NCBI GenBank assembly: GCA_005502775.1
Contig: SCNI01000024.1
Location: 1-55,668, forward strand
DNA from: Microbacteriaceae bacterium 3FA27C10
Lineage (GTDB): Bacteria; Actinomycetota; Actinomycetes; Actinomycetales; Microbacteriaceae
Length of the DNA stretch: 55,668 bases
Direction: 5' to 3'
The notes below the pieces were generated by a model, which was not told the origin of the DNA, did not search any database, and saw nothing but the letters and a program-made list of their open reading frames with translations. Below are positions 35,568 through 51,600 of the stretch, in pieces (the first letter of the stretch is position 1; every line of letters starts with the position of its first letter). The translations under genes and the position numbers were made by a program.

Positions 35568-37592
35568 CTAGGCCGGGGAGGGGCTCGAGCCGGGTCCGGT
35601 GGACGGGAGGGCCGCGGGACCCGCGGCGGGACCTGCGCCGGAGCCCGCCCGCGGGAGCGCGAGGGCCGGCCGGAAGCGCGGGCCCGCCTTGCGGGGCAGG
35701 GCCCAGCCGATCTCGACCGGCCGCCGTCGCCGGGCCAGGGCGACTCCGGCGAGCAGGATGCTCACGAGCAGCATCCCGGCGAGGAAGACCGCCGCGGTCC
35801 ACACCGGTCCGGCGGCTCCGCCGGTGAGGATGTTCTGTATTCCCGTGACGGCATACGCCATCGGACTGATCGAGTTGATGAACTGGAACGGCCCCGAGAG
35901 GATCTCCACCGGGTAGAGCCCGCCCGTCGCGGCGAGCTGCAGGGCGAGCAGCACGAGCGAGACGACGGCGCCCACCCGGCCGAAGGCGGTGGCGAGGAGC
36001 TGGTGGAAGGCGGTGAACGCGAACGCCACGAGCAACGAGAACCCGAGGGTCGCCGGCAGCGAGCTCCAGGCCACCCCGAGCACGAGATGCAGGAAGCCCA
36101 CGAGCAGCAGCACCTGCACGCCCACGACGGCCGCCGCCCGCCCGAAGGTGCGAAGCGTGAGCCGGCCGGTGGTGGCCGAGCTCGCGAGCACCGCGCGGGA
36201 CAACGGGCGCAGCCAGAGGAAGACCGCGAGCGCCCCGAGCCAGAGCGCCACCGGCAGGAGCACGGTGGTCACGATCTGCCCCACACCCGACACCGCGTTC
36301 ACCGTGGTGACGTCGACCTTCACGGGCTGCGCCACCACCTTCGCGGCGGCGGAGGTGTCGCCACCGGAGTTCGCCTGCAGCTGGTCGGCGCCCGACTGCA
36401 GCCCTGAGGCCAGAGTGCGCGCCCCGTCGCCGAGCTGCGTGGCGCCCGTGGCGAGCTGCTGCGCGCCCGGAACGGTCTGCTGCACGCCCGTGGCGAGCTG
36501 GCTGACGCCCGAGGCGACGCCGGAGGCCCCGGAGGCGAGCCCCGGGCCGTTCGCGGCGAGCTGGTCGGCCCCGTTCGCGGCATCGGCGATGCCCGACTCG
36601 AGCTGGCCCAGACCGGCTGCTTGCGCGGCGATGGCTGTCGCGCCGGCCGAAGCCCCGGCGACGCCGGGCGCGAGTTGGGCCAGGCTCGCCTTCACGTATG
36701 CCGGAACAGTCGGGTCCTGCTGCACGGCGGCGTTGAGATCCGTGAGGCCAGAGGCCGCCGGAGCGAGTCCCGTGGAGAGATCGTTGAGGCCCGTGGAGAG
36801 CCCACCGAGCCCGCTCGTCCCCGTGCGCAGCTGATCGAGCCCGCCCGCGAGCCCGGTGACGCCGTTCGTGTAGGCCGCCACCCCGTCCGAGAGCTGCGTG
36901 GCGCCGGAGGCCGCCGAGGCCGCCCCCGAGCCGAGCTGGTCGAGCCCCGAGGCGAGCTGCGAGGCGCCCGAGGCGAGGCCGTCGGCACCGGTGGCGAGCT
37001 GCGTGGCCCCGCCCGAGGCATCCGAGAGGCTCTTGCCGACGCCGCCGAAGCTCGTGTATATGCCGTTCACGACCTGAGCCGTGACCTGCTGCCCGAAGCC
37101 GGACTGCACCGACGAGGCCACGGTGCTCGCGATCAGCCCCGAGAGGTAGCCGTGCGAGGCGTCGGTCTTGATGTCGAGCAGGCCCTGGGTGGGAGTGGTG
37201 CCGGCGAGAGTGTCGAGGCTCGCCGAGAAGTCCGAGGGGATGGTGAGCACGGCGTAGTAGCGGCCGTCAGCGAGGCCGGCGGCTGCGTCGTCGGAGTTCG
37301 TGGCCGTCCAGGCGAAGCCGTTCGAGCCCGGCCCGGTGAGCTGGGTGACGAGCCCGCGTCCGGCGAAGTTGGTGCTCTTCGTGCCGTCGGCGGCCGTCGT
37401 GGTGGTCATCTGGTCGTTGTTCACCACGGCCGCCGGCACCTGCTGGAGGTTGGTGTCGACGTTCGACAGCGCGCCCGTGAAGATGGCGTTGACGGCGAGC
37501 GGCGTGAGCGCCACCCCGAGCGCGGCGAGCACGACGAGGGCGATCTTGGTTCTGCGGCGCGCCCGGGGGGTCGGCGTGGGGGTCGAGCTCAT
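35568..37592 (-). CDS. YhgE/Pip membrane protein (ABC-2-like)
   Basis: A 674-residue membrane protein of the YhgE/Pip family. An N-terminal helix (IALVVLAALGVALTPLAVNA) leads into an extracytoplasmic region: PAAVVNND early, then about 220 residues of heptad-like repeats such as QLATGADGLASGASQLASGL (20) typical of the family. A C-terminal membrane domain of about six helices resembles ABC-2 permeases (SPMAYAVTGIQNILTGG). The C-terminus is Pro/Ala/Gly-rich. Homologues include phage-infection protein and type VII-like secretion accessories. The ATG overlaps the MMPL stop by 4 bp, so the two are co-translated. No separate ABC ATPase is encoded nearby; the MMPL C-terminal domain is the only candidate partner. 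Confidence 0.88.
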   Translation of the reverse strand: MSSTPTPTPRARRRTKIALVVLAALGVALTPLAVNAIFTGALSNVDTNLQQVPAAVVNNDQMTTTTAADGTKSTNFAGRGLVTQLTGPGSNGFAWTATNSDDAAAGLADGRYYAVLTIPSDFSASLDTLAGTTPTQGLLDIKTDASHGYLSGLIASTVASSVQSGFGQQVTAQVVNGIYTSFGGVGKSLSDASGGATQLATGADGLASGASQLASGLDQLGSGAASAASGATQLSDGVAAYTNGVTGLAGGLDQLRTGTSGLGGLSTGLNDLSTGLAPAASGLTDLNAAVQQDPTVPAYVKASLAQLAPGVAGASAGATAIAAQAAGLGQLESGIADAANGADQLAANGPGLASGASGVASGVSQLATGVQQTVPGAQQLATGATQLGDGARTLASGLQSGADQLQANSGGDTSAAAKVVAQPVKVDVTTVNAVSGVGQIVTTVLLPVALWLGALAVFLWLRPLSRAVLASSATTGRLTLRTFGRAAAVVGVQVLLLVGFLHLVLGVAWSSLPATLGFSLLVAFAFTAFHQLLATAFGRVGAVVSLVLLALQLAATGGLYPVEILSGPFQFINSISPMAYAVTGIQNILTGGAAGPVWTAAVFLAGMLLVSILLAGVALARRRRPVEIGWALPRKAGPRFRPALALPRAGSGAGPAAGPAALPSTGPGSSPSPA

Positions 37593-40543
37593 CGGAGGCC
37601 TCCCTTCGGGGCGGAGAGTTCGGTGGAGCCGGGCGCACCGGCGGAATCGGAACGGTGGAGCACGATGCGGGTGAGCGGCCTTCCGCCCAGGGTCGCGGCG
37701 TGACTGGCCGGCTCGGCCTCGACCCCGAGCACCACGGTGGAGCCCGCATCCGGGATGGTGACGACCGCGGCCGCGAACTCCGGCGTCGCCGGCCGGGCGA
37801 AGTCGCCCTCGCCCGCGTCGATCACGAGCAGCGACGACCCGTCGGCCACGCCGAGCGCCACCGCCAGCAGCGCCTGCGCCAGGGGCGAGAGCTCGCCGAT
37901 GGTGCGGTGGATGTCGATGGCCGGCTCCCCGGCGCCGGTGAGCGCCGCGTTGACGCGCGCCACGAGCGTGTCGACCGCATCCCGCGGAATCCGCCGGAGC
38001 GGGGGTGCCGCGAGGCGCAGACGCTCGAGCAGGGCCTCCCCCACCGCGGTGGTGCCGTCGAGCCGGCGCGAGTCGAGATCGACGAGGGTCACGCGCTTGG
38101 CCACCCGGCCGGACTCGGAGGGCAGGCTGTGGCCGAGCACCTGGAGATGCCCCGACGACAGCTCGATTCGCCCGGCGATCGCGGCGCCCACGAGGCGGCG
38201 GGCGGCGGTGTCGCCCGTGAGGACGGCGGTCGATCCGGCGGCCACCGAGAACGACACCGGTTCGCCGGCGCCCTCCACGGCGAGCTCCTCGGCGGTGACG
38301 GCGTCGCCCGGGTGCAGCGCCGCCCACTCGCGCTCCTCGATGTGGCCGCGCAGGCTCTCGCCCTCCACGTCGACGTTCGGCAGGATGCGCGCGAGCCACT
38401 TCGGCAGGTACCAGGCGTGCCGGCCGAGCAGCGTCATGATGGCCGGCACGAGCGTCATGCGCACGAGGAAGGCGTCGACGAACACGCCGACGGCGAGGGC
38501 GAGCGCGATGGCCTTGATGGCCCCCTCCCCCTCGGGCACGAAGGCGAAGAAGACGAAGAACATGATGAGCGCGGCGGCGGTGACGACCCGGGCGCCGTGC
38601 TGGAAGCCCACACGCACGGAGCGGCGGGCGTCGCCCGTCTTCACGTACTCCTCGCGCATGCCCGAGACGAGGAACACCTCGTAGTCCATCGCGAGACCGA
38701 ACAGGATGGCCATCAGCAGGATCGGCAGGAAGCTGATGATCGGCCCCACCGAGTGCACGCCGAGCTGCTCGGCGAACACCCCGTTCTGGAACACCGCCAC
38801 GGTCACGCCGAACGAGGCGCCGACCGAGAGCGCGAAGCCGAGAGCCGCCTTGACGGGCACCGCGATGGAGCGGAACACCATCGCGAGCAGCAGGATGGAC
38901 AGCCCGATCACGAGCACGCCGAACGGGATCAGCGCGTTCGAGAGCTGGTTCGAGACGTCGATGGCCACCGCGGTCTGCCCGCTCACGGTGAACGGCGTGC
39001 CGTACTGCGCCTGCACCTCGCCCTTCATCTCGCGCAGCCGTTCGACGAGCGCCTTCGTCTCGGGCGCGTCGGGCGCGGTGGTCGGCACCACCTGGAAGAT
39101 GGCGGTGTCGAGGGTGGTGTCGGGCAGGCCCGGACCCACGGTGGCCACGCCGTCGACGGCTTCGAGATCGCTCCGGATGCCGGTCAGCACGTTCTGGATG
39201 TCGGTGGTCTGCGTGATGTCGGCCACCACCACGATCGTGCCGTTGTACCCGGGCCCGAACTTGTCGGCGATGGTGTCGTAGGCGATGCGGGCCGAGGTGC
39301 CGGGCGCCTGCGAGGCGGCCGTCGGCAGGTTGAGGTCGAGACCGAACGCCGGGATGGACGCTGCGCCGAGCAGACCGATCACGAGCACGATGAACACGAT
39401 CGGCGCCTTCATCACGATGCGCACCCAGCGCCCGCCGAGCGAGGGCTTGACCGGCTTGCCTCCCGTCGCCGCCTCCCCGTCGTCGTGCGAGGCCGCCGCG
39501 ATGGCCCGCCGGGCCGCACGCGAACCCGGCTTCGGCGCGAGTCGCCCCTTCGCGATGCCCATGATGGCCGGCAGCAGGGTGATGGCGATGCTCACCGCCG
39601 CGAACACCGCGAAGGCGGCCGCGACGCCCATCACCGAGAGGAACGGGATGCCCACCACGAGCAGGCCGAGCAGGGCGATGATGACGGTGAGGCCCGCGAA
39701 CACCACCGCGGCGCCCGCGGTGGCGACCGATTGGGCGGCCGACTCCTCCGCATCCATTCCCTGGGCGAGCTGCGATCGGTGCCTCGAGAGGATGAAGAGG
39801 GCGTAGTCGATGCCCACCGCGAGCCCGATCATGATCGCGAGCATCGGCGCGGTGCTCGACACGGTGGTGAAGGCCGCGACCGTGGTGATGCCGGCGAACG
39901 ACACGCCCACGCCGATCAGCGCGGTGAGCAGCGGCAGGCCGGCGGCGAGCAGGGAGCCGAAGGTGATGAAGAGCACCACACCGGCGAAGAGCACGCCGAC
40001 GCCCTCGGTGATGGTGAGCCCGAAGGTCTGGCTGGTGAACACCTCTCCCCCGTAGGAGACGGCCATGCCGTCGGCCTTCAGGGAGTCGGCGGACGTCTGC
40101 AGCTGCTCGAGCGTCGCATCCGTCACCGAGGTGGCCGGCCCGTCGAACTGCACCTTCACGAGGGCGGTGGTGCCGTCCTTCGAGATCGCGTTCGTGGCGT
40201 ACTGCGAGTAGGGCGAGACGACGGCGGCGACGCCGTCGATCTTTCCGAGGTCGTCGGCCACCGCGCTGATCTTCGACTTGGCCGGGTCGTCGTTCACGTT
40301 CTGGCCGTCGGGCGCCTGCACCACGATCGTGGCGGCGGCGCCGGCCGCCGACGGGAACAGGTTGCTCAGCTTGTCGATCGTCTGCTGCGACTCGGTACCC
40401 GGGATCGTGAAGCTCTCCTGGGTCTGTCCGCCCAGCGCGAGGCCGCCGCCGAGCAGCGCGGCGAGCACGAGCACCCAGGCCGCGACGACGTACCAGGCCT
40501 TGCGGAAGGCGAATCGGCCGATTCGGTAGAGCAGTGTGGCCAC
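37589..40543 (-). CDS. MMPL transporter fused to a degenerate ABC ATPase-like domain
   Basis: A 984-residue proton-driven transporter. Residues 1-735 form an MMPL/RND-like unit with 12 helices in two halves; the proton-relay Asp-Tyr motifs are VGIDYALFILSRHR and LAMDYEVFLVSGMREEY. Residues about 736-984 are extra. They follow the order of an ABC ATPase: FSVAAGSTAVLTG, a phosphate-loop position reading TGDTAARRL (776-784, no GK[ST]), IELSSGHLQVLGHSLP, a signature-like ELSPLAQALLAVALG (885 onward) and a Walker B-like SLLVIDAG with Ala in place of the catalytic Glu. The domain should not hydrolyse ATP. Operon: TetR, this gene, YhgE. Cargo is probably lipid, lipoglycan or a drug; not determinable here. 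Confidence 0.87.
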   Translation of the reverse strand: MATLLYRIGRFAFRKAWYVVAAWVLVLAALLGGGLALGGQTQESFTIPGTESQQTIDKLSNLFPSAAGAAATIVVQAPDGQNVNDDPAKSKISAVADDLGKIDGVAAVVSPYSQYATNAISKDGTTALVKVQFDGPATSVTDATLEQLQTSADSLKADGMAVSYGGEVFTSQTFGLTITEGVGVLFAGVVLFITFGSLLAAGLPLLTALIGVGVSFAGITTVAAFTTVSSTAPMLAIMIGLAVGIDYALFILSRHRSQLAQGMDAEESAAQSVATAGAAVVFAGLTVIIALLGLLVVGIPFLSVMGVAAAFAVFAAVSIAITLLPAIMGIAKGRLAPKPGSRAARRAIAAASHDDGEAATGGKPVKPSLGGRWVRIVMKAPIVFIVLVIGLLGAASIPAFGLDLNLPTAASQAPGTSARIAYDTIADKFGPGYNGTIVVVADITQTTDIQNVLTGIRSDLEAVDGVATVGPGLPDTTLDTAIFQVVPTTAPDAPETKALVERLREMKGEVQAQYGTPFTVSGQTAVAIDVSNQLSNALIPFGVLVIGLSILLLAMVFRSIAVPVKAALGFALSVGASFGVTVAVFQNGVFAEQLGVHSVGPIISFLPILLMAILFGLAMDYEVFLVSGMREEYVKTGDARRSVRVGFQHGARVVTAAALIMFFVFFAFVPEGEGAIKAIALALAVGVFVDAFLVRMTLVPAIMTLLGRHAWYLPKWLARILPNVDVEGESLRGHIEEREWAALHPGDAVTAEELAVEGAGEPVSFSVAAGSTAVLTGDTAARRLVGAAIAGRIELSSGHLQVLGHSLPSESGRVAKRVTLVDLDSRRLDGTTAVGEALLERLRLAAPPLRRIPRDAVDTLVARVNAALTGAGEPAIDIHRTIGELSPLAQALLAVALGVADGSSLLVIDAGEGDFARPATPEFAAAVVTIPDAGSTVVLGVEAEPASHAATLGGRPLTRIVLHRSDSAGAPGSTELSAPKGGLR

Positions 40544-40599: not shown

Positions 40600-41184
40600 T
40601 CAGCGGTTCAGTCCGGCGATGAGTTCGGAGACGACGTCGACGAGGGCTTCCCTGACCTCGTCGACGGATTCGATGTCGGCGACGCTCGGCCGCGAGGCGA
40701 CCAGCACGTAGGCGGCGCCCGCGAGTGCGATTCCGAGGCGGATGCGCTGTTTCGTGGTGGGCAGCTCCGACATGAACGACTCGCCGATGCAGTCGATGTA
40801 GCGGCGCGCCTCGTCCATCATCGGGATGTCGGACAGCGTCTGCCCCTGGTTGATGATGATGTGGGCGGCGAGCCGGTGCTCGAGCAGCAGGTCGACGAAC
40901 TCCACCACGAAGGCGGAGCGCAGTTCGTCGGAGGAGGCACGCGCCACGGTGGAGTCGAGGAAGGCCCCGAGGGTCTGGACAGCCGGGGCGAGCGCCTCTT
41001 CGAGCAGGGCCTCCTTCGAGCGGAAGTGGTACAGCACGCTCGACTTCGAGTAGCCCGCGGCGTCGGCGATCTGCTGCAGCGAGGTGGCGGTGTAGCCGTG
41101 CTCGGCGAACATCTGCAGGGCGATCACGCGCAGCTCAGCGCTGGCATCGGTCTGCACGCGCGGGGCGGGGGGAATGGAAGGCAC
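40600..41184 (-). CDS. TetR-family repressor
   Basis: A 194-residue TetR regulator. The N-terminal HTH is clear: ALQMFAEHGYTATSLQQIAD and AAGYSKSSVLYHFRSKEALL (each 20). The C-terminal ligand domain is generic. It is the first gene of a run with MMPL (56 bp downstream) and YhgE. Two palindromes containing CGATCGGTCAG lie just upstream; the first, perfect over 16 bp, sits in its own promoter, implying autorepression and control of the transporter operon. GTG start at 41184, 6 nt after TAGAGT, indicates a leaderless mRNA. Inducer unknown. Confidence 0.92.
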   Translation of the reverse strand: MPSIPPAPRVQTDASAELRVIALQMFAEHGYTATSLQQIADAAGYSKSSVLYHFRSKEALLEEALAPAVQTLGAFLDSTVARASSDELRSAFVVEFVDLLLEHRLAAHIIINQGQTLSDIPMMDEARRYIDCIGESFMSELPTTKQRIRLGIALAGAAYVLVASRPSVADIESVDEVREALVDVVSELIAGLNR

Positions 41185-41198: not shown

Positions 41199-41214
41199 CT
41201 GACCGATCGGTCAG
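41199..41214. promoter_or_regulatory. perfect 16-bp palindrome, probable TetR operator O1
   Basis: CTGACCGATCGGTCAG reads the same on both strands. It covers the -10/-35 spacer of the tetR promoter, the standard site for autorepression by a TetR dimer. Confidence 0.75.
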
Positions 41215-41216
41215 CG

Positions 41217-41234
41217 ACTGCACGATCGGTCAGT
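41217..41234. promoter_or_regulatory. second, imperfect palindrome, probable TetR operator O2
   Basis: ACTGCACGATCGGTCAGT matches the extended O1 palindrome except for two bases in the left half (CA for AC). Its centre is about 19 bp from that of O1, so two dimers could bind side by side. Confidence 0.6.
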
Positions 41235-48639: not shown

Positions 48640-51600
48640 TCACGACAAGGTCTCCGCGGCTTCGGCCGAAGCACCCACCCCAGCCCCAGCAGCCTCCCGC
48701 GCATCCAGCGCCCGCTGCTCGCGCCGGTTGCGGCGGCGTTCGCGGCCGCCCTCGTAGAGGTTGTAGAGCACCGGCAACACGATCAGGGTCAGCAGCGTCG
48801 ACGACACGAGGCCGCCGATCACGATGATGGCGAGCGGCTGCGAGATGAAGCCGCCGTGCCCGGTGAGCCCGATGGCCATCGGCAGCAGCGCGAAGATGGT
48901 GGCGAGCGCCGTCATCAGGATGGGCCGCAGACGACGCGAAGCACCCTCGATGAGCGCCTCCCGCACGGTGAGCCCGCGCCCGCGGTACTGGTTCACGAGG
49001 TCGACGAGCACGATCGCGTTCGTCACCACGATGCCCACGAGCATCAGCAGCCCGATGAACGACGGGACGCCGAGCGGGATGCCCGAGATGACCTGCAGCG
49101 CGATGGCGCCGGTGGCCGCGAACGGCACCGAGACCAGCAGCAGGAGCGGCTGGATGAGGCTCTTGAACGTCGCCACCATCACCACGTAGACGATCAGGAT
49201 GGCGATCAGCAGCGCGATGCCGAGCTGCGAGAACGCATCCGACTGGTCGGTCACCACGCCGCCCACCTTCGCGGTGGCGCCGGCCGGCAGCGAGATGCTG
49301 TCGAGCGCGCCCTGCACCTCGGTGCTCGCCGTGCCGAGGTCCGCGCTGTTCGGCGTGACCGACACGGTGGCGGTGCGCACGCCCTTCACCGTGGTGATGG
49401 TCGAGGGGCCGTTCACCACGGCCACCGTCGCGAGGGTGTCGAGCCGCACCGGGCCGACCACCGTCGGGATCTGCAGCGCCGCGAGCTCCGCCTGCGTGGT
49501 GGGCGGGTTCTCGGCGGTGAGGTAGATGGTGTAGTTCTTCTCGTCGATCACGATCGACCCGATGTTCGTGGGCTGCATCGCCTGCGACACGATCCCACCC
49601 ACGGCCACCTCGTTGAGCCCGGCCTCGGCCGCCTTCGTGCGGTCGACCGCCACCTGCACGTAGGGCCGCGAGGCGCTGAGGTTGCTGGTGGCCTGCTTCA
49701 CACCCGAGAGCCCCTGCACCGAGCTGAGCACGGCATCGGATGCGGTCTGCAGGTCGGTCTGGTTGGTGGCCGTCACGTCGATGGCGATGTCGGAGCTGCC
49801 GCCGAAGCCGGCGCCCGACGAGACCGTGATGTCGCCGGCATCCGGCAGCGCCTCGAGCGTGGTGCGCACGGTGTCCTGCAGAGCGGTCTGGTCCGCCCCG
49901 GATGCCGTGGTGATGTTGTAGGTGATGGCCGAGTCGCCGCCGCCCGAGAACGCGTCGCGCAGCGAGCTGCCCGAGGACCCGATGGTGAGCTGCACGGTGT
50001 CGATGCCGTCGATGCCCTTGAGCGCCTTCTCCACCTCGAGCGCCGTGGCCGACTGCGCGTCGAGGCTCGCGCCCACGGGCACGGTCTGCGTGACGGTGAA
50101 GGTGTTCTGGCCGCTGTCACCGAGGAAGTTCGTCTTCATCAGGCCGAGCAGCGGCACGGTGCCGATCAGGATGAACGCGGCGATCACGATGGTGACCACC
50201 GAGTGCTTCAGCGTCCAGCCGATGATCGGCAGGTAGCGGCGCTGCAGCGCGGTGGGCGGCTCGTCCTCGACCTCGACGCGGTGGTTGCGCGCCCGCCGGG
50301 TGGGGGTTTCGGAATCGTCCTCCACCGCGATGACGGGAACCGCACCCTTCTTCGCCTTGGGCGGCCGCACGAACCAGTAGGCCAGCACCGGCACGATGGT
50401 GAGCGCCACGAGCAGCGACGCGAGCAGCGCGATGGTCACGGTGAGCGCGAAGGGCCGGAACAGCTCCCCCGTCGACCCGCCCACGAAGGCGAGCGGCAGG
50501 AAGACCGCGACCGTGGTGATGGTGGAGGCCGTGATGGCGCCCGCGACCTCGCGAACGGCGTCGACGATGAGGGCGGCTCGTGCTTCGCCGGCCTCCTTCG
50601 GCGTGAGGCCCTCGGCCCGCAGCGAGGACAGGTGTCTCTTGATGTTCTCGATCACCACGATGGAGTCGTCGACCACGCGCCCGATCGCGATCGTGAGCGC
50701 GCCGAGCGTGATGATGTTGAGCGTGTAGCCCGAGGCCTGCAGCCCGATGAAGGTGATCAGCACCGAGGTGGGGATCGAGATGGCCGTGACGAGCGTCGAC
50801 CGGATCGACAGCAGGAACACGAACACCACGACCACGGCGAAGAACAGGCCGAGCAGCCCCTCGGTGGCGAGCGACTCGATGGACTGCTGGATGAACGGGG
50901 CCTGGTCGAACACCACGGTGAAGGTGGCTCCGGGCAGCGCGCTCTCGAGCTGCGGCAGCAACTCGCGCACGCCCTTCGAGACCTCGACGGTGTTCGCCGA
51001 CGGGATCTTGGTGATCGAGATGGTGAGCGCATCCTGCCCGTTCACCCGCGAGATGGAGGTGACCGGGTCGTCGACGAGGGCCACCGTGGCGACCTGCCCG
51101 ATGGTGACCGGCGTGCCGTCGGCGTTCAGGGCCGGGAGCGGAATGGCCGCGATGTCGTTCGTGGAGGTGAGCTTCGAGCCGGCCTGCACGGCGTAGCTCT
51201 GGCCGTTCTCGTTCAGGGTGCCGGCGGGGATCAGCTGACCGTTGCCCGCGACGGCGTCGCTGATCTGCTTCGTGGTGACGCCGGTGGTCGCGAGCGACTG
51301 CGGGGAGGGCGTGATGGTGACGCGCTGCCCGATCTGGCCGAGCACCTGGGCGGCGCGCACGCCCTTCACGGCCTCGATGTCGGGCACGGCCGTGGTGGCG
51401 AGCTGCTGCGCGAGGGTCTTCTGGTCGGTGCCCGAGACGGCGATCGAGATGACCGGGAAGTCGCTGATGCTCGCCGAGAGCACTTGGGGGTCGAGGTCGG
51501 CGGGCAGCTGCGACTTGATGCGGTTGATGGCCTGCGTCATCTTCTGCTCGGCCGTGGCGAGGTTGGTGCCGTAGTCGAAGGTGGCGGAGATGAGCGAGAG

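Follow-up and report, generated by a model that had tools for sequence, protein, structure and literature searches.

A degenerate ABC nucleotide-binding domain fused to an MMPL transporter and encoded beside YhgE in Microbacteriaceae

An MMPL (RND-type) transporter of Microbacteriaceae ends in about 250 residues that are, almost certainly, a degenerate nucleotide-binding domain (NBD) of an ABC protein by homology. The fusion is a trait of the family, and elsewhere among actinobacterial families the domain's counterpart is encoded as a gene of its own. The best reading of these arrangements, and in our judgement a probable one, is that the dead NBD serves as an adaptor that docks the proton-driven MMPL pump onto the membrane protein YhgE to form a hybrid complex. 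The evidence is drawn from the window, a 55,668-nucleotide stretch of DNA from a member of the genus Herbiconiux (Microbacteriaceae, Micrococcales, Actinomycetes), and from its relatives.

Gene organization of the locus

Three genes, tetR, the MMPL gene and yhgE, follow one another in this order on a single strand (minus), and the order is repeated in most of the window-type relatives fetched. The first gene of the operon (40600..41184, minus strand) starts with GTG and encodes, as read from its translation, a TetR-family regulator of 194 amino acids. The MMPL open reading frame (37592-40543, minus strand), also with a GTG start and with its stop codon at 37589-37591, encodes 984 amino acids, of which residues 1-714 (38402..40543, minus strand) form the MMPL part (PF03176, E 1.3e-84). 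Behind the last transmembrane helix, a linker (38300..38401, minus strand) with the consensus PNVDIEGExLRxH....WA was recognized by alignment, and its columns E, G, L, H and W are invariant in the 20-row alignment of the fused family (A2). It is followed by the pseudo-NBD, residues ~749-960 (37664..38299, minus strand), which was delimited by profile comparisons and a motif alignment, and by a variable C-terminal tail rich in Ser, Pro and Ala (residues 961-984; 37592..37663, minus strand). The whole extension, residues 736-984 (249 residues), corresponds to 37592-38338 of the window (minus strand).

The third gene (35568..37592, minus strand) encodes a YhgE/Pip membrane protein of 674 amino acids with matches to TIGR03061 (121 bits), TIGR03062 (158 bits) and PF12698, the first two of which both exceed their cut-offs. 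Its ATG overlaps the stop codon of the MMPL gene by 4 nt (ATGA), and the co-translated YhgE/Pip gene described in a first-pass annotation of this DNA is borne out. A weak MMPL-like match (34.9 bits) was also seen at 48739-49365 of the window, inside a frame of 1107 codons.

A scan of the locus for a sigma-70-type promoter and a terminator found none. A perfect palindrome, TGACCGATCGGTCA (41200..41213), lies 15 bp ahead of the tetR start and is the probable TetR operator; a sequence scan detected a second copy with two mismatches (41219-41232) in tandem with it. The perfect copy is single in the 4.0-Mb genome, and the palindrome core GACCGNTCGGTC is present in 12 of the 12 Herbiconiux window-type loci fetched with that region (L005-L016).

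Homology of the C-terminal domain to ABC ATPases

As a single sequence, the domain scores 15 bits (E 0.038) against Pfam ABC_tran, the cut-off of which is 25, and no Pfam or NCBIfam model exceeds its cut-off on the fused domain of the window protein. A phmmer search of PDB with the domain alone found no ABC ATPase, and of 20 fused relatives just 5 reach E ≤1 against ABC_tran, with 0.00081 as the best value. Searched as a profile of 20 fused relatives (A2), the family reaches PDB entries with a best E of 3.2e-7 over profile columns 27-241, and the best 60 of the 224 PDB matches are all ABC proteins. In hhalign, the window group aligns in the correct register with an ABC profile built on 30 ABC genes found in the same genome (97.5% over 181 columns), while the controls, an MMPL segment and three profiles with shuffled columns, give 0.1-0.3%. 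By the same method the fused domain matches the separate pseudo-NBD genes described below at 99.7%, and a second group of fused paralogues (15 rows), which gives 13% against the ABC profile directly, matches the window group at 97.6%.

Two AlphaFold models made from three-sequence input are of low confidence (pLDDT 47 and 52), and Foldseek searches with them returned mostly ABC ATPases with non-significant values (best E 0.37 and 0.041), so the homology rests on profiles and not on these models. The similarity at profile level runs along the whole domain, and the hhalign and PDB profile matches rule out a non-ABC origin at that level. Two scans of viral contigs for additional sequences to model found none.

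Loss of catalytic motifs and remaining constraint

The order of ABC motifs read in the MMPL C-terminus at first pass is present, with SFSV, G-D-T-A-A-R-R at the place of the P-loop, SGHLQVLG, LSPLAQ and LLVIDAG. The P-loop Lys, the LSGGQ glycines and the Glu adjacent to Walker B are all missing from the window protein, as had also been proposed; the Glu of IDAGEGD sits further along. When features of an active ABC ATPase are compared, the window protein is without the Walker A Lys, LSGGQ, the catalytic Glu, the Q-loop Gln and the H-loop His.

Motifs were counted in 57 YhgE-adjacent domains, 29 separate and 28 fused. None of the 57 has the catalytic Glu at the aligned column (a DE string stands elsewhere in four rows), and none has an intact LSGGQ, the window reading LSPLAQ. 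Walker A GK[S/T] is retained in five (L121, L132, L141, L180 and L165), and the Q-loop Gln and the H-loop His occur at their aligned columns in one domain each (L126, L145), the window domain having neither. Asp replaces Glu in 12 of the 29 separate copies, and Arg replaces the P-loop Lys in the separate copies of family f21. Walker A, signature and Walker B are the most conserved segments of ABC proteins (3.18, 2.77 and 2.79 bits in 29 ABC rows), which is not so in the fused family (2.04, 1.81 and 1.97 bits in 19 rows), where conservation peaks at the strands around SGxLQVLG and LPSE (2.73 and 2.65 bits). Judged from its motifs, the domain is catalytically dead and presumably works without ATP use.

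A domain of this kind might be a regulatory switch that still binds nucleotide or another ligand, and not a plain scaffold. Walker A is kept in the five domains named above and in two further fused ones (L205 and L206), and 12 of the 29 separate copies have Asp at the place of the Glu; the window-type domain, however, has lost the P-loop Gly and Lys as well as the Q-loop Gln and the H-loop His, and a switch is in our estimate quite improbable. ABC heterodimers commonly contain a degenerate site, and the domain might likewise have its partner in a live NBD from another locus, as heterodimers with one such site do. Because LSGGQ is lost too, however, the pseudo-NBD would be unable to complete either composite site. 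The fetched loci show no live ATPase gene between tetR and yhgE, some ABC genes lying several kb off or on the opposite strand, and a live partner can be given very little credence.

The domain changes faster than the rest of the protein. In 14 orthologue pairs, its dN/dS is 0.28-0.55 against 0.13-0.34 for the MMPL part, figures that have only relative meaning because a simple count method was applied to GC-rich DNA, and its dN is 1.5-4.0 times that of the MMPL part. Such faster change, the missing catalytic motifs and, in one branch, a missing subdomain are what a functionless decaying relic would show, but the frame is open in 59 of 59 loci, all 14 pairs have a dN/dS below 1, and core and linker columns are invariant, all of which makes decay extremely unlikely.

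Several structural variants of the domain were observed. In L165, L169, L129 and L130, the helical subdomain and the signature are lost, and the Q-loop region runs almost directly into Walker B. The signature column is gapped in the fused domains of L122, L126 and L166-L168. Among the separate pseudo-NBDs, a second class (L118-L120, L123, L124, L127, L133-L135, L138, L139, L143, L182 and L183) has a conserved PDRHGGDPxxWW consensus replacing the Walker B/D-loop region (alignment A4), which might be a new site for a ligand or a contact.

Distribution of the fusion and its pairing with YhgE

The domain lies within the MMPL frame in all 59 loci fetched (L005-L063; 56 distinct places), 30 of which were fetched with the whole MMPL protein and 29 with the domain. 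In every one of them yhgE accompanies the fusion, starting between 39 nt inside and 210 nt past the end of the fused MMPL gene. A misassembly, which the first-pass annotation had raised as an objection to its own reading, is thus ruled out, as is a chance open reading frame. Among 199 sampled Microbacteriaceae genomes, 78 match the domain at 1e-5, some of the matches being ordinary ABC proteins of ~230-360 codons. A second MMPL fusion, with a YhgE of its own alongside, is encoded in the window's genome.

Twelve domain-less MMPLs of Herbiconiux, two of them from the window's genome, were compared. None of the 10 that have at least 3.5 kb of downstream DNA is followed by a YhgE (L196 and L197, with only 107 and 254 nt, were left out); these MMPLs are not independent, because most belong to one orthologous group. 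Of the 45 rows that the fused-domain profile matched class-wide, 21 were taken up as 20 stretches, and YhgE adjoins the domain in 17 of these; the remaining three (L218, L222 and L223) are ordinary ABC ATPases whose motifs are intact. Two of the 17, the MMPL fusions of L205 and L206 (family f94), from the same class and a different order, carry a GPSGSGKT P-loop and a Walker B ending in VDDAD and are apparently intermediate. At L207, two successive pseudo-NBD-YhgE pairs were seen with a TetR gene in between. On plasmids, 71 records match the MMPL part; H1 and H14, two of the 15 listed, encode proteins of 723 and 789 amino acids, too short for the domain, with no YhgE annotated within 4.5 kb, and P0003 has no plasmid relative at 1e-15.

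Separate pseudo-NBD genes and descent of the domain

Fifty-one YhgE loci were examined, a non-random set hand-picked for spread that includes one locus from the window's own genome. In 29 of them a separate NBD-like gene precedes yhgE, with an estimated gap of -85 to +31 nt, so that the separate pseudo-ATPase gene envisaged at first pass does exist; such pseudo-NBDs occur in other families of the order, of the class and of the phylum. The other 22 comprise two MMPL fusions detected by stricter models, three more detected by the first model (L129, L130 and L142), one locus cut by a contig end (L144) and 16 loci in which the models found no NBD, namely eight yhgE-yhgE tandems and eight single yhgE genes. 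The earlier premise that a YhgE permease normally needs an ATPase does not hold in view of these 16 loci and of the degeneracy of the adjoining NBD-like partners in 57 of 57 cases.

In a tree of 68 domains, one side is made up of the ten ABC rows (98/96). Of the 29 fused domains, 28 cluster (88/91) among the separate ones; the lone ungrouped fused domain, that of L126, has a long branch and fewer than half of its columns filled. Support for placing the fused domains within the separate ones is moderate (88/91 and 81/91) in what is an unrooted tree, rooted for drawing only. With this moderate support, the pseudo-NBD is probably older than the fusion, having been a partner of YhgE first and joined to MMPL later. 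In the MMPL tree, 23 proteins with the domain and nine without are split by one branch (86/97), the f94 fusions being absent from the trees; the data fit a single fusion event but do not prove it.

A candidate docking loop in YhgE

ABC-2 permeases carry a coupling helix in the loop behind the second hydrophobic segment. In the window YhgE, the loop behind the second hydrophobic segment of the ABC-2 domain consists of residues 462-482 (RPLSRAVLASSATTGRLTLRT; 36147..36209, minus strand), and it is a candidate docking site on the grounds of partner-specific conservation and the tree. An Arg is found in this loop in 24 of 32 fused-type and 21 of 29 separate-type YhgEs, that is, in 45 of the 61 with a pseudo-NBD, and in none of 24 partner-less ones, and a Leu earlier in the loop in 30 of 32, 18 of 29 and 0 of 24, respectively. 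Neither Arg nor Lys is present at the loop column in 12 of the 61 partnered YhgEs; the partner-less YhgE of L128 has Lys there.

Six of the seven fused YhgEs without Arg or Lys (L122, L126 and L166-L169) adjoin an MMPL whose domain is gapped at the signature, a coincidence that fits a changed docking site. Docking would also have to differ in the branch of L165, L169, L129 and L130, because the helical subdomain lost there is half of the usual docking groove. The partner-less YhgEs fall at no fewer than three separate places on the YhgE tree, with 17 of the 24 in one clade, and the loop signature may partly reflect shared ancestry.

These patterns bear on the alternative that MMPL and YhgE are separate systems and merely co-regulated, the C-terminal domain serving MMPL in oligomerisation or gating and the link to YhgE being historical. 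Their co-inheritance would be explained by the shared TetR operon, and YhgE occurs without a recognizable NBD or MMPL in 16 of the 51 loci. On the other hand, the same domain precedes YhgE without any MMPL in 29 of the 51, and the loop residues of YhgE track the presence of the domain, which leaves this alternative unlikely.

A further observation concerns the yhgE-yhgE tandems (L116, L117, L131, L140 and L185-L188), which are without an NBD. Their partners split into two sister groups of eight in the YhgE tree, as for an obligate heterodimer.

Energy source and proposed mechanism

The window protein has the PF03176 domains and both Asp-Tyr pairs of an MMPL transporter, Asp246-Tyr247 and Asp620-Tyr621, which are the presumed proton-relay pairs. 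Among the fused MMPLs, DY is found at one pair in 52 of the 52 rows with letters (four of 56 are gapped) and at the other in 56 of 56. Asp-Tyr pairs are assigned to the proton path of MmpL3 (PMC13134001), and by their place in the two repeats the window pairs would be the MmpL3 pairs. The window protein itself is excluded as an MmpL3 equivalog (NF052608), scoring 212 bits against a cut-off of 1400. That a single chain combines a relay-bearing pump with a dead ATPase speaks for proton drive, and the fused pump is presumably powered in this way.

In the adaptor mechanism favoured here, a stand-alone pseudo-NBD partner of YhgE would have become fused to an MMPL pump. The dead NBD would sit beneath YhgE at the usual ABC-2 coupling loop as a docking module and hold the proton-driven MMPL pump next to YhgE, and the two would act on one shared substrate, probably hydrophobic, under TetR control. 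The occurrence of the same module alone before YhgE or fused to MMPL (a Rosetta-stone pattern) implies linked proteins, and the presence of the dead motor as a separate gene beside YhgE elsewhere suggests a plug joining two kinds of transporter; from such genomic patterns, physical docking and joint export are predicted. More tentatively, and with some doubt on our part, a YhgE-type ABC-2-like permease may have lost the catalysis of its motor while retaining the dead NBD as a plug, and fusion to MMPL may then have made it proton-powered.

A conserved degenerate NBD partner, separate or fused to a proton pump depending on the lineage, offers a hypothesis for how YhgE is organized and powered. 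If true, an ATP motor would now be no more than an adaptor connecting two superfamilies of transporters, and an ABC-type permease would have been re-energised by an RND-type motor in a widespread class of actinobacterial transporters. A possible hint at function comes from Saccharopolyspora hirsuta, in which a YhgE and an MMPL with the neighbouring tags F1721_04135 and F1721_04140 have values of 3.82 and 3.33 in what is apparently a table of cholesterol-induced genes (PMC9782250).

Relation to known systems

Neither an MMPL-pseudo-NBD fusion nor a YhgE pseudo-ATPase was found described in the open-licence literature searched, as far as the sources were accessible, which does not prove absence. 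The window protein has the MMPL repeats and the two Asp-Tyr pairs in common with other members of the MMPL family (PF03176) such as MmpL3, from which it differs by the added C-terminal pseudo-NBD and by its score of 212 of 1400 bits. The window YhgE is a full member of the YhgE/Pip family (TIGR03061/03062; PIP family, TC 9.B.74), and it is distinguished by a dedicated degenerate NBD partner that is fused to a second transporter. PIP is entered as TC 9.B.74 in PMC3924187, which also mentions ABC-2 homologues. In the literature consulted, no assigned transport function or energy source was found for YhgE/Pip, which is placed in TC class 9.B (PMC3924187).

The EsaA proteins of type VII systems are distant relatives of YhgE (TIGR03929, E 3e-9, below its cut-off), and we know of no pseudo-NBD or MMPL link for them. 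ABC-2 exporters with a separate ATPase (DrrA/DrrB type) likewise have an NBD-like gene beside an ABC-2-like permease, and their NBD is homologous, whereas the NBD described here is devoid of catalytic motifs and, in Microbacteriaceae, belongs to an MMPL pump. An automatic pipeline would in all likelihood name the window protein a plain MMPL transporter, because the fused domain stays below all Pfam and NCBIfam cut-offs.
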